From NCBI GenBank assembly GCA_029553845.1, contig JAKPKF010000132.1:1-15732 (forward strand): a stretch of DNA of 15,732 nucleotides, given 5' to 3'. Positions within the stretch are counted from its first letter, which is position 1, and each line of letters begins with the position of its first letter. Shown in pieces: positions 4,451-15,732 of the stretch. Below the pieces are notes generated by a model, which made no database searches, had not been told where the DNA came from, and saw only the letters and a list, made by a program, of their open reading frames with translations. A program made the position numbers and the translations under genes. This DNA comes from a bacterium (GTDB lineage: Bacteria; Patescibacteria; Dojkabacteria; SC72).

Positions 4451-5575
4451 ATGAAGGCTATTAATTTAATAAGGAGAAATATTGCTAATATCCCTGGTTG
4501 GGTGTCTGATCGAAAGATTATTGTCTTTGAATCTGATGACTGGGGCAGTATTCGTATGCCATCAAAGAGAACATTTAATAAACTTAATGCTCTTGGTTTG
4601 GATTTGGAGTCTGAAGGCTATGCCAGATATAACCTTTATGATACTTTAGCCAACAAAGATGACTTGCAATGCTTGTTTGAAGTTCTTGATGAATTCAAGG
4701 ATATTAATGGTAATCCTTGCATATTTACAGCGGTCAGTGTTGTTGCAAATCCTGATTTTAAGAAAATCGAGGAGAATGATTATATGAATTATTATTATGA
4801 GCCTTTCACAAAGACATTAGAAGCATATTACCCAGGCCAAAATGTATTTGAAATGTGGCAATTGGGTATCAGCAAAAAAGTCTTCTTTCCTCAATTTCAC
4901 GGGAGAGAGCATCTGAACATTTCAGCTTGGATGGATGCTTTGAGATTAAATCACCAACATACAAGACAAGCTTTTGATTTTGGTTTTTGGGGCTTTGTTC
5001 CAGATAAATCTACTCGATTTAGTGTTGAAAACCAAGCAGCTTTTGCTGTTTATGGTATAAATGACATTTCTATTCATAGAGAAATCCTAAATGAAGGACT
5101 TGCTTTGTTTAAACAATTGTTTGGTTATTCCGCAAAATATTTTGTGCCACCTAATGGGCCTTTTAATAATGCCCTTAATGAAACCTTGTGGGCTAATGGC
5201 ATTAGATTGCGCTCAACGGCAAAAATTCAAAATGAAAGTGTTGGTAATCATAAAATCAGGAAAAATATATGTTGGCTAGGCAAAAAAGATAGTAGCGGAA
5301 TAAGGTACATTACCCGAAATTGTTTTTTTGAACCGAGTCAACCAGGAATGGATTGGATTGATAGTTGTTTGAATGATATAAAGATTGCATTCAGATGGAG
5401 AAAACCGGCGATCATTAGTTCGCATAGAGTTAACTATATTGGAGTTCATGATAAAAAAAATAGAGACAATTCGCTTCTGCTTTTAAGAGACCTATTGGCC
5501 TTGATCAAAAAGGAATGGCCAGATTGTGAATTTTATAGTACGGATCATCTGGAGCAACTGATGGAGCGAAATTAG
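4451..5575 (+). CDS. Polysaccharide deacetylase-family (NodB-like) protein
   Basis: A 374-residue protein without a signal peptide, so probably cytoplasmic. It resembles the 'polysaccharide (de)acetylase' group, a divergent branch of the NodB/CE4 (beta/alpha)-barrel fold. The motifs fit in order: FESDDWGS with Asp29 and Asp30 (equivalent to the NodB TFDD motif), FHGREH with His150 and His154 (equivalent to the HxxxH metal ligands), PPNGPFN around 235 (equivalent to motif 3), and ISSHRVN near 325 (equivalent to the late catalytic His). This suggests metal-dependent deacetylation of an N-acetyl or O-acetyl sugar on a lipid-linked intermediate, but members near polysaccharide loci are mostly uncharacterised. 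Its stop is 6 bp before the amidotransferase start, so the two are probably co-translated and may act on the same sugar. There is a 119-bp gap upstream. Confidence 0.65.
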   Translation: MKAINLIRRNIANIPGWVSDRKIIVFESDDWGSIRMPSKRTFNKLNALGLDLESEGYARYNLYDTLANKDDLQCLFEVLDEFKDINGNPCIFTAVSVVANPDFKKIEENDYMNYYYEPFTKTLEAYYPGQNVFEMWQLGISKKVFFPQFHGREHLNISAWMDALRLNHQHTRQAFDFGFWGFVPDKSTRFSVENQAAFAVYGINDISIHREILNEGLALFKQLFGYSAKYFVPPNGPFNNALNETLWANGIRLRSTAKIQNESVGNHKIRKNICWLGKKDSSGIRYITRNCFFEPSQPGMDWIDSCLNDIKIAFRWRKPAIISSHRVNYIGVHDKKNRDNSLLLLRDLLALIKKEWPDCEFYSTDHLEQLMERN

Positions 5576-10466: not shown

Positions 10467-11612
10467 TTGAAAAAGATTATTTTAATAAACCAGGATTCGG
10501 GCTACCTGATGGTTGATCTGGCTAATGCCCTGATTGAAAGAAATGCAGAGGTAGAACTTATTGCAGGCAGACTTGTGGTAAGAGGAACGCCTTTATCGAG
10601 TAAGGCTAAATTTCGAAGAATAACCAGATATAAAAGAAACAGTGATTTCTTACGGTTACTAACCTGGTGCGTTGGCTTTCTACAAATCTTATTTATAGTT
10701 AAAACTAAACATAAAAATGGACATTTGTTGATCGTTTCAAATCCACCGCTGGCAACACTTCTGCCATTGTTTTGTAGAAATAGCTTCACATTCTTCATTT
10801 TTGATGTTTATCCTGATGCACTTAGGCAAATGAATATCGTATCGCGACAATCTGTCTTGTATAAAATATGGGAGAAAGCCAACAGAAAGACTTTTCAACG
10901 AGCTGTTCATATATTCACATTAACAGACACAATGGCAGAACTGTTAAATCATTATTGTCCCCCAAGGGAGATTAAAATTATTTCTGCATGGAGTGATAAT
11001 GAGTTCTTCAGATCGATCCCCAAAGCCAATAATCCCTTTATTATAGAACACAAGTTACAAAACAAGTTCATAGTTCTGTATTCAGGCAATTTGGGTGCTA
11101 CGCATGATACAATTGTCATTCCTCATATAGCCTTAGAAGTGAAGTCTCATAAAGTACTCTTTCTGATAATTGGAGAAGGTGATCAAAAAAAACATCTGGT
11201 TGAGGAAATCAAGAAATTACGAATAACCAATTTAATAATGCTGCCTTATCAACCGGTTGATATGATTCCATACTCTTTTGCATCCGCGGATATAGCTATT
11301 GTCAGTCTCAGTAGCAAAGCCTCATCACTCAGCATTCCCAGCAAAACCTTTAATTTCATGTCAGCAGGCCTCCCACTACTGTGCATTGCGGGTGAAGAGT
11401 CTGAGCTTAATAATATAGTTAATAAATACAAAAACGGCAAATGTTTCAGCCATAAAAAGGTAGCTGAGATGGCTGCATTTATAGATGAAGTTGCTGAAAA
11501 TGAAGATCTTTTATCTGCTTATAGTAGAAATTCCCTGGAAGCTTCAGCCGATTTTACATCCAGGAATGCAAACACTATTGCCGAGGAAGTAATAAAAGCA
11601 ACATCAAATTGA
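10467..11612 (+). CDS. WbuB-like family 4 glycosyltransferase
   Basis: A 381-residue GT-B glycosyltransferase of the WbuB-like GT4 group, whose best-known member transfers L-FucNAc in E. coli O26. Features are LLIVSNPPLATLLPL, FFIFDVYPDALRQM, SAWSDNEFF, VLYSGNLGATHD and IPSKTFNFMSAGLPLLCIAG. The site of the second EX7E glutamate is Asn296, a substitution that occurs in this subfamily. The frame must start with TTG at 10467, which gives MKKIILINQDSGYL; the first in-frame ATG would remove 14 residues including the first beta-strand. It lies 11 bp after the previous gene, and its stop overlaps the next TTG start. In many loci a WbuB-like gene directly precedes the initiating sugar transferase, as it does here. 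Confidence 0.82.
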   Translation: MKKIILINQDSGYLMVDLANALIERNAEVELIAGRLVVRGTPLSSKAKFRRITRYKRNSDFLRLLTWCVGFLQILFIVKTKHKNGHLLIVSNPPLATLLPLFCRNSFTFFIFDVYPDALRQMNIVSRQSVLYKIWEKANRKTFQRAVHIFTLTDTMAELLNHYCPPREIKIISAWSDNEFFRSIPKANNPFIIEHKLQNKFIVLYSGNLGATHDTIVIPHIALEVKSHKVLFLIIGEGDQKKHLVEEIKKLRITNLIMLPYQPVDMIPYSFASADIAIVSLSSKASSLSIPSKTFNFMSAGLPLLCIAGEESELNNIVNKYKNGKCFSHKKVAEMAAFIDEVAENEDLLSAYSRNSLEASADFTSRNANTIAEEVIKATSN

Positions 11613-12241
11613 AGTCACGATTATACAGTAAGATAGTTAAGCGCGCACTGGATTTACTTGTTTCAGCAACTGGTCTTGTAGCCGGACTTCCGGTATTGGT
11701 TTTTCTATTACTTATCCTTACTATTACAAACAAAGGTGCTGTCTTCTTTAAACAAACGCGGGCCGGGTTGGGAGGAAAACTTTTCAGACTACTGAAGTTT
11801 AAGACAATGAATGACCGGAAGGATGATACTGGACGACTGCTTCCTGACAATGAACGACTGACCCGCTTTGGGAGGTATGTGCGCTCTCTCTCCCTTGATG
11901 AACTTCCACAACTGATTAATGTCATTAAAGGAGACATGAGTCTGGTTGGTCCCCGCCCTTTGCTGCCTGAATACCTGCCTCTTTACAATGAGCGACAGGC
12001 ACGTCGCCATGAGGTGCAACCAGGGATTACCGGCCTGGCTCAGATAAATGGGCGCAATTCCTTGTCGTGGGAGGAAAAGTTCGAACTGGATATCTGGTAT
12101 GTTGATAATATGTCGTTCTGGCTTGACCTTAAAATCCTGTTTCAGACTGTGATTAAGGTGCTTATCCGCGAAGGAATAAACTCAGAAGATACAGTCACTA
12201 TGGAAAGATTCAGAGGAAGCCATGATTCGCTGGATATCTGA
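11609..12241 (+). CDS. pglC: PglC-type phosphoglycosyl transferase (initiating sugar transferase)
   Basis: A 210-residue monotopic phosphoglycosyl transferase that would move a sugar-1-phosphate from a UDP-sugar to undecaprenyl phosphate and start the repeat unit. One N-terminal hydrophobic re-entrant helix lies at about residues 11-38 after a basic MKSRLYSKIVKRALD start. Next come FFKQTRAGLGGKLF and FKTMND, then the catalytic Asp-Glu dyad in SLDELPQLINVIKGDMS (Asp97-Glu98), VGPRPLLPEYLPLY, GITGLAQINGRN and SWEEKFELDIWYV. The short form lacks the extra N-terminal membrane domain of WcaJ/WbaP, so it is PglC-like, a group that often uses diNAc-bacillosamine or a similar diamino or 4-amino sugar. 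The start is a TTG overlapping the upstream stop by 4 bp (ttga). Confidence 0.88.
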   Translation: MKSRLYSKIVKRALDLLVSATGLVAGLPVLVFLLLILTITNKGAVFFKQTRAGLGGKLFRLLKFKTMNDRKDDTGRLLPDNERLTRFGRYVRSLSLDELPQLINVIKGDMSLVGPRPLLPEYLPLYNERQARRHEVQPGITGLAQINGRNSLSWEEKFELDIWYVDNMSFWLDLKILFQTVIKVLIREGINSEDTVTMERFRGSHDSLDI

Positions 12242-12300
12242 AGACTATACTCTGATCTGTGTTAATAAACTCAATTCTAAATCTAATAACTTACAATACT

Positions 12301-12531
12301 ATGGAAGAAAAACTTATTGAAGCATTGGCTGAAGCACTTGAAATGGATAGAAGTACAATCAAGCCGGATGGAGTATTTCGCGATTATGAGAATTATAGTT
12401 CCCTTACGGAGTTATCTGTACTAGCAATGCTTGACAGTGAGTTCGGGATTGAAATTGAGATGAAGGAGTTCGACAGTTTGAAAACTGTAGCTGATCTGGT
12501 TAGACTCATCACAGACAAACAAAAATCATGA
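12301..12531 (+). CDS. Acyl carrier protein
   Basis: A 76-residue acidic, helical protein of acyl carrier protein size. It starts MEEKLIEALAEALEMD, then DYENYSSLTELSVLAMLDSEFGIEIEMKEFDSLKTVADLVRLI, which lines up with helices II-III of ACP (D-S-L-x-x-V-E-L...L-E-x-x-F-G-I-x-I). By that alignment Ser34 is the 4'-phosphopantetheine attachment site. The usual Asp before it is Ser33, so the motif reads SSL instead of DSL. A GTG further upstream (12259) would add 14 hydrophobic residues unlike any ACP, so the ATG is chosen. The stop overlaps the KASIII start by 4 bp (ATGA), implying coupled translation and a dedicated carrier for the neighbouring enzyme. There is no phosphopantetheinyl transferase in the window, so a cellular one must serve. 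Confidence 0.8.
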   Translation: MEEKLIEALAEALEMDRSTIKPDGVFRDYENYSSLTELSVLAMLDSEFGIEIEMKEFDSLKTVADLVRLITDKQKS

Positions 12532-13586
12532 GCCTGTTATCATTTAACAATGTTGGGATATCTGGCCTTGCCGCGGCGGTGCCTCAGAAGATTATTAACA
12601 ACTATAAGCATGATCTTTATTTCAACAAGGATGATATACAGGAGGTCATTGACAAGATTGGTGTCAGAGAACGCAGATTCGCTGATGATAACACTTGCTC
12701 GTCAGACCTCTGCTTTGCGGCTGCCGAAAAGCTCATAAACGAAATGAATATTGACAGGAATGAGATAGATCTTCTGCTATTCATTTCACAGACTCCTGAT
12801 TATCGTATGCCGGCTACATCGGTTCTATTGCAGAATAGACTTCAACTATCAACATCCACTATCACTTTTGACATTAGTCTTGGCTGCTCGGCATTTCTTT
12901 ATGGGCTTAGTGTTGCCTACTCCATGCTTACAGCAGGAGGTATACGGAAAGCTCTTGTGCTGGATGGAGAGACACGCTCAAAGGTTTATTCACAGAAGGA
13001 CCGTAAGACGGCTTTCCTTTTCGGCGATGGAGGAGTGGCTGCACTTATTGAAAGAGGGGAGCAATACTCCACAAGTTGGTTTTCTCTTAATTCCGATGGA
13101 TCCAGGGAGTCTTTAATAAAAATACCCGCTGGCGGTTACCGTAAGATGAGTTCCTGCGAGACTGTTACTGAGAAGGTTGTCGATGAACACGGGAATATCC
13201 GTTCAGAAGAACAAGGTTACATGAATGGGGCGGATGTGTTTAACTTCGTTATCCGTGAGGTGCCACGTGACTTTGACCGGTTAATCGAATTTGCCGGTGT
13301 TGAAAGAAACTCAATAGATTACTTTATCTTCCATCAGGCAAACAGCTATATAAATGGTTTCCTCGCCAGGAAGCTTAGATTGCCTGAAGAAAGGATCCCG
13401 ACAACAATTCACAAATATGGCAATACATCATCAGTCTCCATACCTCTCACAATTGTCTCGGAACTAAGTGGAAAGCTCAACGGTCAGAAGCGTATTCTTT
13501 TAAGCGGTTTTGGCGTTGGACTGACATGGGGTACAGCAATAATACATTTGAATGATTGCTTCATAGGAGATATTGTCGAGGTGTAG
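12528..13586 (+). CDS. 3-oxoacyl-ACP synthase III (KASIII/FabH-like)
   Basis: A 352-residue thiolase-fold condensing enzyme. The FabH-type Cys-His-Asn triad is intact: Cys120 in LGCSAFLYG, His269 in FHQAN and Asn299 in KYGNTSS. GVRERRF near the N-terminus and SGFGVGLTWGTAIIHL at the C-terminus are FabH signatures. KASIII enzymes condense an acyl-CoA primer with malonyl-ACP, so with the adjacent ACP the simplest product is a short 3-oxoacyl-ACP such as acetoacetyl-ACP. It is longer than housekeeping FabH (about 317 residues), mainly through extra sequence around residues 195-235, and sits inside a glycan locus, so a specialised role is more likely than bulk fatty acid synthesis. The primer is not predictable from the sequence. 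Confidence 0.87.
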   Translation: MSLLSFNNVGISGLAAAVPQKIINNYKHDLYFNKDDIQEVIDKIGVRERRFADDNTCSSDLCFAAAEKLINEMNIDRNEIDLLLFISQTPDYRMPATSVLLQNRLQLSTSTITFDISLGCSAFLYGLSVAYSMLTAGGIRKALVLDGETRSKVYSQKDRKTAFLFGDGGVAALIERGEQYSTSWFSLNSDGSRESLIKIPAGGYRKMSSCETVTEKVVDEHGNIRSEEQGYMNGADVFNFVIREVPRDFDRLIEFAGVERNSIDYFIFHQANSYINGFLARKLRLPEERIPTTIHKYGNTSSVSIPLTIVSELSGKLNGQKRILLSGFGVGLTWGTAIIHLNDCFIGDIVEV

Positions 13587-13669
13587 CCTTTAACTTTTGA
13601 AAGTTGTTTATATAATTGCAGAAACAGTGTGAATTCTAACAACGTGTGCAATAGTAATATTTGAATAAT

Positions 13670-14437
13670 ATGTCTGAATCTATATTCTCACTGAAGGACA
13701 AATTTATCCTTATTACCGGGGCTTCTTCGGGTATTGGAAGACAATGTGCCATAACCTTCAGCGAGTATGGTGCTCGAGTTGCACTTTTTGGTAGAGACCA
13801 GAACAGGCTGGAGGAAACCCTGGGTATGATGAAACAGCCTTCAGATCACGTGATTTGTTCTGTTGATCTTCTTGAATATAAACAAATTGCTGATGCGGTT
13901 AAAGTTGTTGTGAATAAACAGGGACTTATTGATGGGGTTGTTAATTGTGCCGGTATCTCGACCACATTACCATTGAACGCAATTTCACCAGGTAAAATGG
14001 AGGATTTTTTTCGGGTAAATGTTATTGGTGCTGTTAACCTGACCAGAAATGCATTAAAACAAGCACACTTCTCTGTAAATGGGGGGAGTATTGTTTTCAT
14101 AAGCTCGGTTATGGGTGTTACAGGTGAGAGTGGTAAGGCGCTGTATTCAATGACAAAGGGTGCTTTGATATCTGCCGTGAGGTCCATGGCTGTTGAGCTG
14201 GCAACTAGAAGAATAAGGGTAAATGCCATTTCTCCGGGTGTAGTTGATACTCCAATGTCAAAGCATGCAGTGTACAGCAAGGATGAGAGTTCAATTAATA
14301 GAATTAAGTCATTACACCCACTCGGACTGGGCCAACCGGCAGATGTGGCAAATGCTTCTCTTTTTCTTATTTCAGATGCTGCCCGGTGGATTACGGGCAC
14401 CAATCTCATTGTGGATGGAGGTTATTCGACTAAATAG
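13670..14437 (+). CDS. SDR-family 3-oxoacyl-ACP reductase (FabG-like)
   Basis: A 255-residue classical short-chain dehydrogenase/reductase. The cofactor loop is TGASSGIG at about 18-25, followed by NCAG near 90, the catalytic Ser146-Tyr159-Lys163 set (SSVMG...YSMTK) and the late VNAISPGVVDTPM and ITGTNLIVDGGY motifs. FALFGRD-like spacing after beta-2 (VALFGRD) suggests NADPH preference. Next to an ACP and a KASIII, the natural role is reduction of a 3-oxoacyl-ACP to a 3-hydroxyacyl-ACP, but SDRs of this type also reduce keto-sugars, so sugar metabolism is the alternative. ATG 13670 is chosen over the TTG at 13661. It follows the KASIII gene after an 83-bp gap with no recognisable element. Confidence 0.82.
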   Translation: MSESIFSLKDKFILITGASSGIGRQCAITFSEYGARVALFGRDQNRLEETLGMMKQPSDHVICSVDLLEYKQIADAVKVVVNKQGLIDGVVNCAGISTTLPLNAISPGKMEDFFRVNVIGAVNLTRNALKQAHFSVNGGSIVFISSVMGVTGESGKALYSMTKGALISAVRSMAVELATRRIRVNAISPGVVDTPMSKHAVYSKDESSINRIKSLHPLGLGQPADVANASLFLISDAARWITGTNLIVDGGYSTK

Positions 14438-14482
14438 AATGTGATAAAGAATCTCAGGCCTATTGAGTGCCAGACCTTAATT

Positions 14483-14499
14483 TTAAGCCAAAGGCTTAA
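14483..14499 (+). terminator. Small perfect hairpin between the SDR and acyltransferase genes
   Basis: The sequence ttaagccaaaggcttaa forms a 7-bp perfect stem with a 3-base loop, followed by an AT-rich but not U-rich stretch. It is a weak candidate for a terminator, attenuator or RNA-processing site in a 137-bp gap. Without a U-tract, strong termination is unlikely, and read-through into the next gene is expected. Confidence 0.25.
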
Positions 14500-14574
14500 T
14501 TTATCGTTGATGAATGGTATTTTTAACTTTTATTGGCAGCAATATTTGAAACCAATTTACAAAACCAGATCATA

Positions 14575-15225
14575 ATGAAAAAAGTAATTGTACTCGGTGC
14601 CGGGGGGCATGCGGCAGAGATAGATGAGTACATTAGGCATACTCAAAGGGTTACTCTTAAACGAGATCTCAAAATAGTAGGTTTTCTTGATGATAATGCG
14701 AATAACTACTCAAAGTATGCTTTCTCTGCCCCCCTCCTGGGAGGAATACAAAATCATCAGATTAGCAGAGATATTAATTATATCATTGGTATCGCAGGGC
14801 TTGAGCATAGATTTAAGATCGTTGAAAGGTTTAAAGCAGAAGGTGCAGTGTTTCTCACTTTTGTTCATTGCAGTGCTTATATTTCAGATTCTGCCAAAAT
14901 AGGAGAAGGTTCCATTATTGGACCCAATGTTAATCTTGGCCCAAATGTAAGGATTGGTGAGTTCACACTAATTAATGCGCGTTGTAGTATAGCGCATGAT
15001 ACAATTATTGGAGACTTCAACTTCATCAGTCCGAATGTTTGCCTCTCTGGGGCAACTGAAGTTGGCCATGGGAATCTCTTTGGCATTAACAGTGCAACAA
15101 TCCCTTCTATAAAAGTCGGCAATAACAATAAAATAGCCGCTGGCATGGTCCTCGATCAGAATATTGGAGACGATTCAGTTGTCTTCTATCGCTTTAAAGA
15201 GAGAGTGATTGCTATACCAAAATGA
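14575..15225 (+). CDS. pglD: PglD/NeuD-like sugar O/N-acyltransferase
   Basis: A 216-residue trimeric-type acyltransferase. The N-terminal Rossmann-like domain starts MKKVIVLGAGGHAAEIDEY and has VGFLDDN and PLLGGI. The C-terminal left-handed parallel beta-helix, from about residue 100, carries hexapeptide repeats (AKIGEGSIIGPNVNLGPNVR and following). The expected catalytic His is His141 in SIAHDTIIGDFN. PglD acetylates the 4-amino group of a UDP-4-amino-sugar with acetyl-CoA; NeuD and PerB are related. Because ACP, KASIII and SDR genes come just before it, this copy may use a 3-hydroxyacyl-ACP donor instead (inference). ATG 14575 is preferred over an upstream TTG because it places the LGAGGH motif at the normal distance. 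It is the last intact gene before transposon debris, and the aminotransferase that often follows is missing. Confidence 0.85.
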   Translation: MKKVIVLGAGGHAAEIDEYIRHTQRVTLKRDLKIVGFLDDNANNYSKYAFSAPLLGGIQNHQISRDINYIIGIAGLEHRFKIVERFKAEGAVFLTFVHCSAYISDSAKIGEGSIIGPNVNLGPNVRIGEFTLINARCSIAHDTIIGDFNFISPNVCLSGATEVGHGNLFGINSATIPSIKVGNNNKIAAGMVLDQNIGDDSVVFYRFKERVIAIPK

Positions 15226-15547: not shown

Positions 15548-15732
15548 TCAAATTCTGCATCTATCTTCAAATTTAATCAAAAATTGCTGTAGGATCATAC
15601 CCCAGTCCCGGATGGGCAAGGTCCATTTTTTCTCAATATTGGCAATTGCCAGGTAAACAGCCTTGAGGGCTGCCTGATCATGAGGAAAGACAGACTTAGT
15701 TTTAGTGTACTTTCTAATACCCCGGTTCAGGC
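15548..15732 (-). CDS. IS256-family (mutator-type) transposase, C-terminal part
   Basis: Minus-strand frame of 60 codons ending in TGA at 15548-15550 and running off the window edge, so it is partial. It reads NRGIRKYTKTKSVFPHDQAA, then LKAVYLAIANIEKKWTLPIR and DWGMILQQFLIKFEDR. This is the highly conserved C-terminal tail of IS256/Transposase_mut proteins (R-K-x-T-K-x-K-x-x-F-P...L-x-L-A-I-x-N-I-x-K-K-W-T-x-P-I-R-x-W...Q-L-x-I-x-F-x-x-R). No stop or frameshift is seen in the visible part, so the element could be intact beyond the window. Confidence 0.9.
   Translation of the reverse strand, partial: LNRGIRKYTKTKSVFPHDQAALKAVYLAIANIEKKWTLPIRDWGMILQQFLIKFEDRCRI

Follow-up and report, generated by a model that had tools for sequence, protein, structure and literature searches.

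The closest described relative of the gene set considered here is the wfpB–wfpG R1 cassette of Flavobacterium psychrophilum, for which type-II fatty acid synthase (FAS)-like synthesis and transfer from an acyl carrier protein (ACP) to UDP-Qui2NAc4N have been proposed (Cisar et al. 2019, PMC6519341). According to the available text of that paper, the cassette has two ketosynthases (KAS; wfpC and wfpE) and one ketoreductase, the O-antigen locus also has fnl, pglE and pglF, and the product is a C6 dihydroxyacyl group, assigned as 3,5-dihydroxyhexanoyl by nuclear magnetic resonance (NMR). We compared this system with a gene set in a 15,732-nt stretch of a bacterial contig (JAKPKF010000132.1, assembly GCA_029553845.1), hereafter the window. 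A sequence-only reading of the window had mentioned the hydroxylated short acyl chains on 4-amino sugars of the F. psychrophilum O-antigen, though not the assignment of the wfp genes to them, and had proposed that genes for an ACP, a KASIII, a short-chain dehydrogenase/reductase (SDR) and a PglD-type acyltransferase form a dedicated hydroxyacyl-donor pathway for an amino sugar.

Other described enzymes share single features with the window proteins. Campylobacter jejuni PglD and the acetyltransferase domain of Neisseria PglB have the fold and the UDP-4-amino-sugar residues in common with the window PglD-like protein. They use acetyl-CoA as donor and work with the pathway partners PglC, PglE and PglF, and we know of no ACP genes beside them; the C terminus of PglD is GVPAK, which the window protein lacks. 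LpxA and LpxD are hexapeptide enzymes that take 3-hydroxyacyl groups from ACP, but these are long chains on the housekeeping ACP, destined for lipid A, and the two enzymes are secondary sequence matches and a weak fold match to the window protein. The qhbCB/gdr module of Acinetobacter baumannii is associated with QuiNAc4N bearing (S)-3-hydroxybutanoyl, which is the product predicted for the window; the available text of PMC9676051 gives the module as qhbCB/gdr alone and names no dedicated ACP–KAS–ketoreductase genes.

The wfp cassette, as described, and the window alike combine a PglC homologue, a dedicated ACP, a ketosynthase, a ketoreductase and a PglD-like acyltransferase in one locus. They differ in that the window has one ketosynthase. 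The window contig carries a PglF-like gene upstream; pglE was not found in the draft, whose contig ends near an IS-like fragment. A locus with wfp-like order (L219: PglC, two KAS, SDR, PglD, PglE, PglF) encodes a PglD that is 25% identical to the window protein and keeps GxPAK. An F. psychrophilum PCR control primer (as given in the available text of PMC5601056) matched none of 12 KASIII-positive genomes with at most one mismatch, and wfp was compared by description. The window cassette consists of the following features:

11609–12241, + strand: PglC-type initiating phosphoglycosyltransferase, 210 aa (PF02397, 211.6 bits)
12301–12531, + strand: dedicated ACP, 76 aa, with phosphopantetheine serine Ser34 (PF00550, 38.7 bits)
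12528–12531, + strand: 4-bp ATGA overlap of the ACP stop and the KASIII start
12528–13586, + strand: KASIII, 352 aa, proposed to catalyse the first and only condensation (PF08545 and PF08541)
13670–14437, + strand: SDR, predicted ketoreductase, 255 aa (PF13561, 192.4 bits; also PF00106)
14578–15225, + strand: PglD-type N-acyltransferase of subfamily A, 215 aa, without the C-terminal GxPAK (PF17836, 34.4 bits; PF00132, 54 bits)

All five genes lie on the + strand in the order PglC–ACP–KASIII–SDR–PglD (11609–15225), with gaps of 59 bp (PglC–ACP), 83 bp (KASIII–SDR) and 140 bp (SDR–PglD), and the Pfam matches of all five proteins exceed the family cut-offs. This confirmed what had been read from the letters: four genes in order on one strand (12301–15225), the 4-bp overlap and the transferase directly upstream. 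The catalytic residues claimed earlier were likewise located, namely the KASIII triad C120-H269-N299, together with both ACP_syn_III domains, and the SDR set S146-Y159-K163, as in FabG-like ketoreductases. The SDR protein matches 229 SDR models, and its substrate assignment is provisional. His140 of the PglD-like protein aligns with the catalytic His125 of C. jejuni PglD. Among aligned relatives, window included, the catalytic residues are invariant in KASIII (56 of 56) and SDR (55 of 55), as is the ACP serine (52 of 52); the window ACP site reads Ser-Ser-Leu where we take Asp-Ser-Leu to be usual, with the serine itself present. Alternative starts are possible for ACP (GTG 12259), SDR (TTG 13661 versus ATG 13670) and PglD (TTG 14533 versus ATG 14578).

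We estimate a probability of roughly 70% that the ACP–KASIII–SDR trio makes a hydroxyacyl-ACP that is used by the PglD-like enzyme. The cassette would then supply, on its own, the acyl group of the sugar that begins an O-antigen- or capsule-like polysaccharide. In the first step, KASIII would condense a short acyl-CoA (acetyl-CoA being the likeliest) with malonyl on the dedicated ACP to give acetoacetyl-ACP, which the SDR would reduce to 3-hydroxybutyryl-ACP. UDP-2-acetamido-4-amino-2,4,6-trideoxyglucose would be provided by the upstream PglF-like dehydratase and by PglE, which is missing from the assembly. The PglD-like enzyme would transfer the hydroxyacyl group directly from ACP to the 4-amino group of this sugar, and the PglC-like enzyme would then load the acylated sugar phosphate on undecaprenyl phosphate. 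Gene order, catalytic residues, linkage, the slot, the co-occurrence and the missing motif are observations; from gene content and motifs we infer the chemistry of each step, direct donation by the ACP and a C4 chain. A hydroxyacyl donor on ACP is favoured because the PglD and KASIII subfamilies co-occur, because the cassette shares its slot with lone pglD genes and because the CoA-type motif of PglD is lost; together with the conserved linkage, these observations support the dedicated pathway as first proposed.

Conservation of the cassette and the slot between pglC and pglE

A KASIII alignment scan with one genome per species returned at least 80 loci, the best 80 of which were kept; 55 of these, with a KASIII identity of at least 53%, are referred to as close loci. 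Neighbours were searched within distances of 2.5 to 8 kb, and loci cut by contig ends were scored as misses. ACP was found near KASIII in 50 of the 55 close loci, SDR in 54, PglC in 38, PglD in 48 and either PglC or PglD in 49, so that the trio is conserved together next to pglC or pglD. The sequence-only reading had named such a neighbourhood search as one that could refute it, and the outcome is in its favour. A PglE-type aminotransferase was near in 24 close loci, and 19 contained a second KAS. The three listed loci at 48–53% KASIII identity had PglC near in one case and PglD in one, while the 22 listed loci below 48% had ACP near in 19, SDR in 22, PglC in 2, a weak PglD match in 8 and either in 9. 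The association with PglC and PglD is a property of the close KASIII clade. That the group below 48% (F. johnsoniae and others) represents the same system is unsupported, with PglC near in 2 of 22 and the F. johnsoniae group elsewhere in the tree.

A genome from the same family as the window genome (G059) carries PglC–ACP–KASIII–SDR–PglD–DUF218–aminotransferase–PglF, with 48–61% identity to the window over the five cassette genes. The uninterrupted PglC–ACP–KASIII–SDR–PglD order also occurs in 13 of the best 80 loci (L060, L064, L065, L070, L071, L076, L079, L080, L081, L088, L099, L104 and L107), and this recurrence is more than chance. In many relatives a PglC of about 50–65% identity lies beside the cassette. 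The close KASIII clade is not confined to Bacteroidota: it also has members in Ignavibacteriota, Chlorobiota and Balneolota and, as single records, in other phyla (mostly draft metagenome bins).

The KASIII and PglD subfamilies also co-occur across genomes. Among 398 genomes of the genus to which the F. paronense record belongs (Flavobacterium), KASIII was detected in 12 at E ≤ 1e-110, and PglD in 69 at E ≤ 1e-20 and in 11 at E ≤ 1e-60 (subfamily A). All 11 genomes with subfamily-A PglD fall among the 12 KASIII genomes; in 10 of them the two genes share a contig and lie no more than 3 kb apart, and in the eleventh (G451) they are on two different contigs. The remaining KASIII genome (G100) contains a two-KAS cassette whose PglD is of another kind. 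The chance of such an overlap is ~1e-20 when genomes are treated as independent, which is not quite true. The next four PglD matches (38–40% identity; group D) adjoin a KASIII–ACP–SDR set of another kind. A second sample, the window genome and 99 relatives (n = 100), contained KASIII in 13 genomes at E ≤ 1e-60 and in 2 at E ≤ 1e-110, and PglD at E ≤ 1e-40 in only the same 2. Neither KASIII nor PglD was found in the five other genomes of the window genus, which points to horizontal spread of the cassette.

In these Flavobacterium genomes, the stretch after pglC, usually followed by pglE and pglF, can hold a lone PglD, a PglC–PglD fusion frame, another kind of KAS cassette or a window-type one-KAS cassette. 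The other KAS cassettes in this slot commonly encode two KAS, along with a gene identified in one locus (L203) as that of a Rieske oxygenase. We inspected the surroundings of 20 of the 55 weaker PglD matches: 9 had KAS genes near pglC and PglD (two or more in 7, one in 2), 7 had PglD beside PglC without KAS, 2 were fusion frames and 2 lay elsewhere. No pglE was seen in two loci with PglD beside PglC and no KAS (L218 and L222). This pattern would be expected of a cassette that gives the same amino sugar a different acyl group in place of acetyl.

Further variants were seen. The Rieske-type oxygenase (L203:8980–10062, − strand; Pfam) lies inside a two-KAS cassette between pglC and pglE, open reading frames (ORFs) of 358–361 aa occupy its position in L206, L208, L211 and L212, and its presence suggests further hydroxylation of the acyl group. 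A metallo-beta-lactamase-fold hydrolase, possibly a thioesterase, follows the SDR at L061:5940–6635 and L196:9838–10470 (Pfam), with similar ORFs in L062, L068 and L073; these hydrolase-bearing cassettes carry another PglD type. Frames of 405–421 aa with a PglD match occur at G236:C55, G268:C6, G290:C4, G355:C3 and G483:C41. In the two such frames inspected (L214 and L215), PglC was also matched and pglE–pglF follow, so that they look like PglC–PglD fusions.

The C terminus of the PglD-like enzyme

The window PglD-like protein has both a PglD_N domain and a hexapeptide left-handed beta-helix, and it matches TIGR03570 with 152.7 bits, just under the cut-off of 160.8. An AlphaFold model confirmed the fold (mean pLDDT 73.9), and Foldseek matched the model to PglB, VioB, PerB and PglD structures (E = 4e-9 to 4m98 and 1e-8 to VioB). 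By motif, the residues of the UDP-sugar site are Asp38-Asp39, His11 and His140; the roles of these residues in PglD are described in the available text of PMC8040287. In a tree built without the C-terminal columns, the 29 window-type PglDs (group A) cluster in a single clade with a support of 95/93, and group D joins it at 88/85. The catalytic His is retained in group A proteins, as are, judged by motif, the Asp-Asp pair and the UDP-sugar-site His.

Our argument about the donor site was drawn from the sequence, none of it from the AlphaFold model. The CoA enzymes VioB, C. jejuni PglD and PerB carry GNPAK or GVPAK as a C-terminal motif. In Pcryo_0637, according to the available text of the paper on this enzyme, the Asn212-Pro213 peptide adopts the cis form when CoA is bound and the trans form without it; judged by position, this would be the N-P of the GNPA motif. 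The C-terminal G-x-P-[AG] is absent in all 29 group A proteins, and the window protein reads FYRFKER there. Instead, 28 of the 29 match [FL]-[FYH]-[RK]-[FY]-K-E, and one (L099) has neither motif. Group D likewise lacks GxP[AG] in 4 of 4 proteins and has the same replacement, while PglDs without KAS genes keep GxP[AG] in 7 of 7. The loss of this motif in groups A and D fits an acyl-ACP donor as a supporting but not decisive observation, because group B PglDs, which lie beside ACP/KAS cassettes with orthologous KASIII, keep GxP[AG] in 30 of 32 cases. For the same reason we rejected GxPAK loss as a universal mark of ACP-linked PglDs. The two group B exceptions (L094 and L095) end in SPAAK.

Group B is one of several observations that weigh against a dedicated hydroxyacyl-ACP donor. 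The AlphaFold model has a pLDDT below 50 at its C terminus (residues 188–215), and PglD Ser13 is Gly in the window protein. The trio alone is not sugar-specific, because sets with a less similar KASIII also occur away from pglC: other relatives of the window genome (L039, L041, L042 and L044) have ACP, KASIII (38–46% identity) and SDR without PglC. Among the close loci, 6 of 55 have no PglC or PglD nearby and 5 of 55 have no ACP, some of them being cut by contig ends. Further points of this kind concern the acyl chain and the acceptor sugar and are weighed below.

Acyl chain length, acceptor sugar and competing explanations

The window contains a single KASIII, and the four other KASIII-like matches of the window genome lie on other contigs and are 26–33% identical. 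Window-type KASIII occurs in one-KAS and two-KAS loci alike. Among the close loci, 21 of the 36 with one KAS have type-A PglD near it, against none of the 19 with two. On a quick tree of 82 KASIIIs, distant ones among them, the distribution of one- and two-KAS loci requires at least 9 changes and that of PglD types 12. KASIII Met94 is invariant (56 of 56), at a position where most second KASIIIs carry Leu (14 of 19). Most simply, window-type KASIII would carry out the first condensation and a second KAS would add two more carbons. F. psychrophilum combines two KAS with a C6 dihydroxyacyl group; by analogy, one KAS would mean one condensation, and we slightly favour a C4 3-hydroxybutyryl group for the window. 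N-(S)-3-hydroxybutyryl sugars of the bacillosamine type are known from Pseudoalteromonas, according to the available text on that organism, and from A. baumannii (available text of PMC9676051).

Alternatively, the same cassette could make another 3-hydroxyacyl product if KASIII started from a longer or branched unit, such as isobutyryl-CoA, or if the chain were lengthened by host FAS. Branched fatty acids are made in Bacteroidota, and Met94 stands where, by our alignment by eye, E. coli FabH presumably has Phe87, so that the pocket may be non-standard. The invariance of Met94 speaks for one fixed substrate, and the second KAS, with other residues at this position, sits where a longer chain is expected. 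We consider this alternative unlikely.

A second alternative is an acceptor other than the 4-amino group of Qui2NAc4N, namely the amine of a different amino sugar made via another aminotransferase or a deacetylase. No PglE orthologue was found in the window draft genome (G000), where the best matches have 31–34% identity, nor in the genome of L056 (G501), whose KASIII is 75% identical. Moreover, the three nearest relatives (L054–L056) have a different PglC-like gene (36–42%) and, upstream of ACP, genes for a WbqC-like protein and a PIG-L-type deacetylase (L054:7292–9662 by Pfam; L055 and L056 alike by inspection), and this sub-group may therefore use a different acceptor sugar. Set against this, PglE orthologues are present in 11 of 12 other trio genomes picked for this check (all but G501), in the genome of L054 (G101) on the same contig as the cassette; the window PglC is of the type that goes with pglE–pglF; and the Asp-Asp pair and both His of the UDP-sugar site are kept by motif. 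Another acceptor is thus rather improbable for the window. In L078, a PIG-L-like frame without WbqC lies upstream of ACP, together with a different PglC.

Third, the cassette could be a relic, its pglE severed by an insertion sequence (IS) and the locus inactive. The contig ends near a transposase fragment directly after PglD:

15548–15730, − strand: C-terminal end of a mutator/IS256-type transposase (PF00872, 19.6 bits, below the cut-off of 21)

This fragment and the missing PglE orthologue would suit an inactivated locus, but all cassette genes are open and their catalytic residues intact. Draft contigs often end at IS copies, and pglE may lie past the gap; the fragment at the contig end may well be the reason why pglE is not in the assembly. 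An inactive locus therefore seems to us similarly improbable. The contig sequence used in the searches ends at base 40451 (around window position 15565), near the IS-like fragment, and the last 167 bases of the window (15566–15732; window end at G000:C36:40618) lie beyond it.

The remaining alternative, that the PglD-like protein is an ordinary acetyl-CoA acetyltransferase and the trio serves another acylation of the same polysaccharide by another enzyme, can draw on the TIGR03570 similarity, on the CoA dependence of the nearest solved structures and on the PglD upstream in L058, L059 and L061, which keeps GxPAK and where the functions could be separate, but we consider it improbable, as no other conserved acyltransferase-like gene was seen beside type-A cassettes (among matches to window genes and eight loci inspected), subfamily A, at the thresholds applied to the 398 + 100 genomes, was never found without KASIII, and the C-terminal motif of the CoA enzymes is missing from this subfamily.

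Precedent, wider pattern and neighbouring genes

The general idea, in which an ACP-based, type-II-FAS-like cassette supplies a PglD homologue, was already published for F. psychrophilum in 2019 (PMC6519341), whereas the one-KAS form, its wide spread and the altered PglD C terminus look new. Among the papers listed in a literature search covering titles, the beginnings of abstracts and few subscription papers, we recognized that study as the only direct precedent and no description of the one-KAS form, its spread or the C-terminal change.

Taken more broadly, PglD-type acyltransferases may at least once have exchanged acyl-CoA for a private acyl-ACP donor, the mark of this exchange being the loss of the CoA-responsive cis-proline segment from subfamilies A and D. 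Between pglC and pglE–pglF there would be a plug-in site for acyl cassettes in Bacteroidota, Ignavibacteriota, Chlorobiota and others (with no, one or two KAS, and with or without a Rieske oxygenase or metallo-hydrolase), and the number of KAS would set an acyl length that can be read from the genome. We offer this generalization tentatively, at slightly less than even odds. If it is true, gene content would predict how the first sugar is acylated in many surface polysaccharides of Bacteroidota, no KAS meaning acetyl, one 3-hydroxybutyryl and two 3,5-dihydroxyhexanoyl or similar. This would help serotype prediction, because different R-group genes go with different lipopolysaccharide antigenicity in F. 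psychrophilum (available text of PMC6519341). The altered PglD C terminus would also offer a single place to study the change from CoA to ACP donor in a sugar acyltransferase.

The surrounding genes look like an O-antigen- or capsule-type polysaccharide locus, judging by sequence resemblance. Upstream on the same contig lie the PglF-like dehydratase gene (PF02719, 377 bits) and Wza- and Wzc-like genes, assigned by resemblance. We take upstream genes on the contig to be fnlA, fnlB and fnlC, the first of which matches PF02719. Within the window, glycosyltransferases (read from their sequence), a Wzy-like protein (a weak match, below cut-off) and an asparagine-synthase-like amidotransferase are encoded 5′ of the cassette. 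A defence function of the cassette was rejected, as PADLOC gave no match for ACP, KASIII, SDR or PglD, and so was a plasmid origin, the best plasmid match among those listed having 39.6% identity. A 374-aa protein encoded at 4451–5575 has no Pfam or NCBIfam match; its relatives recur in Flavobacterium polysaccharide loci, often as tandem pairs.

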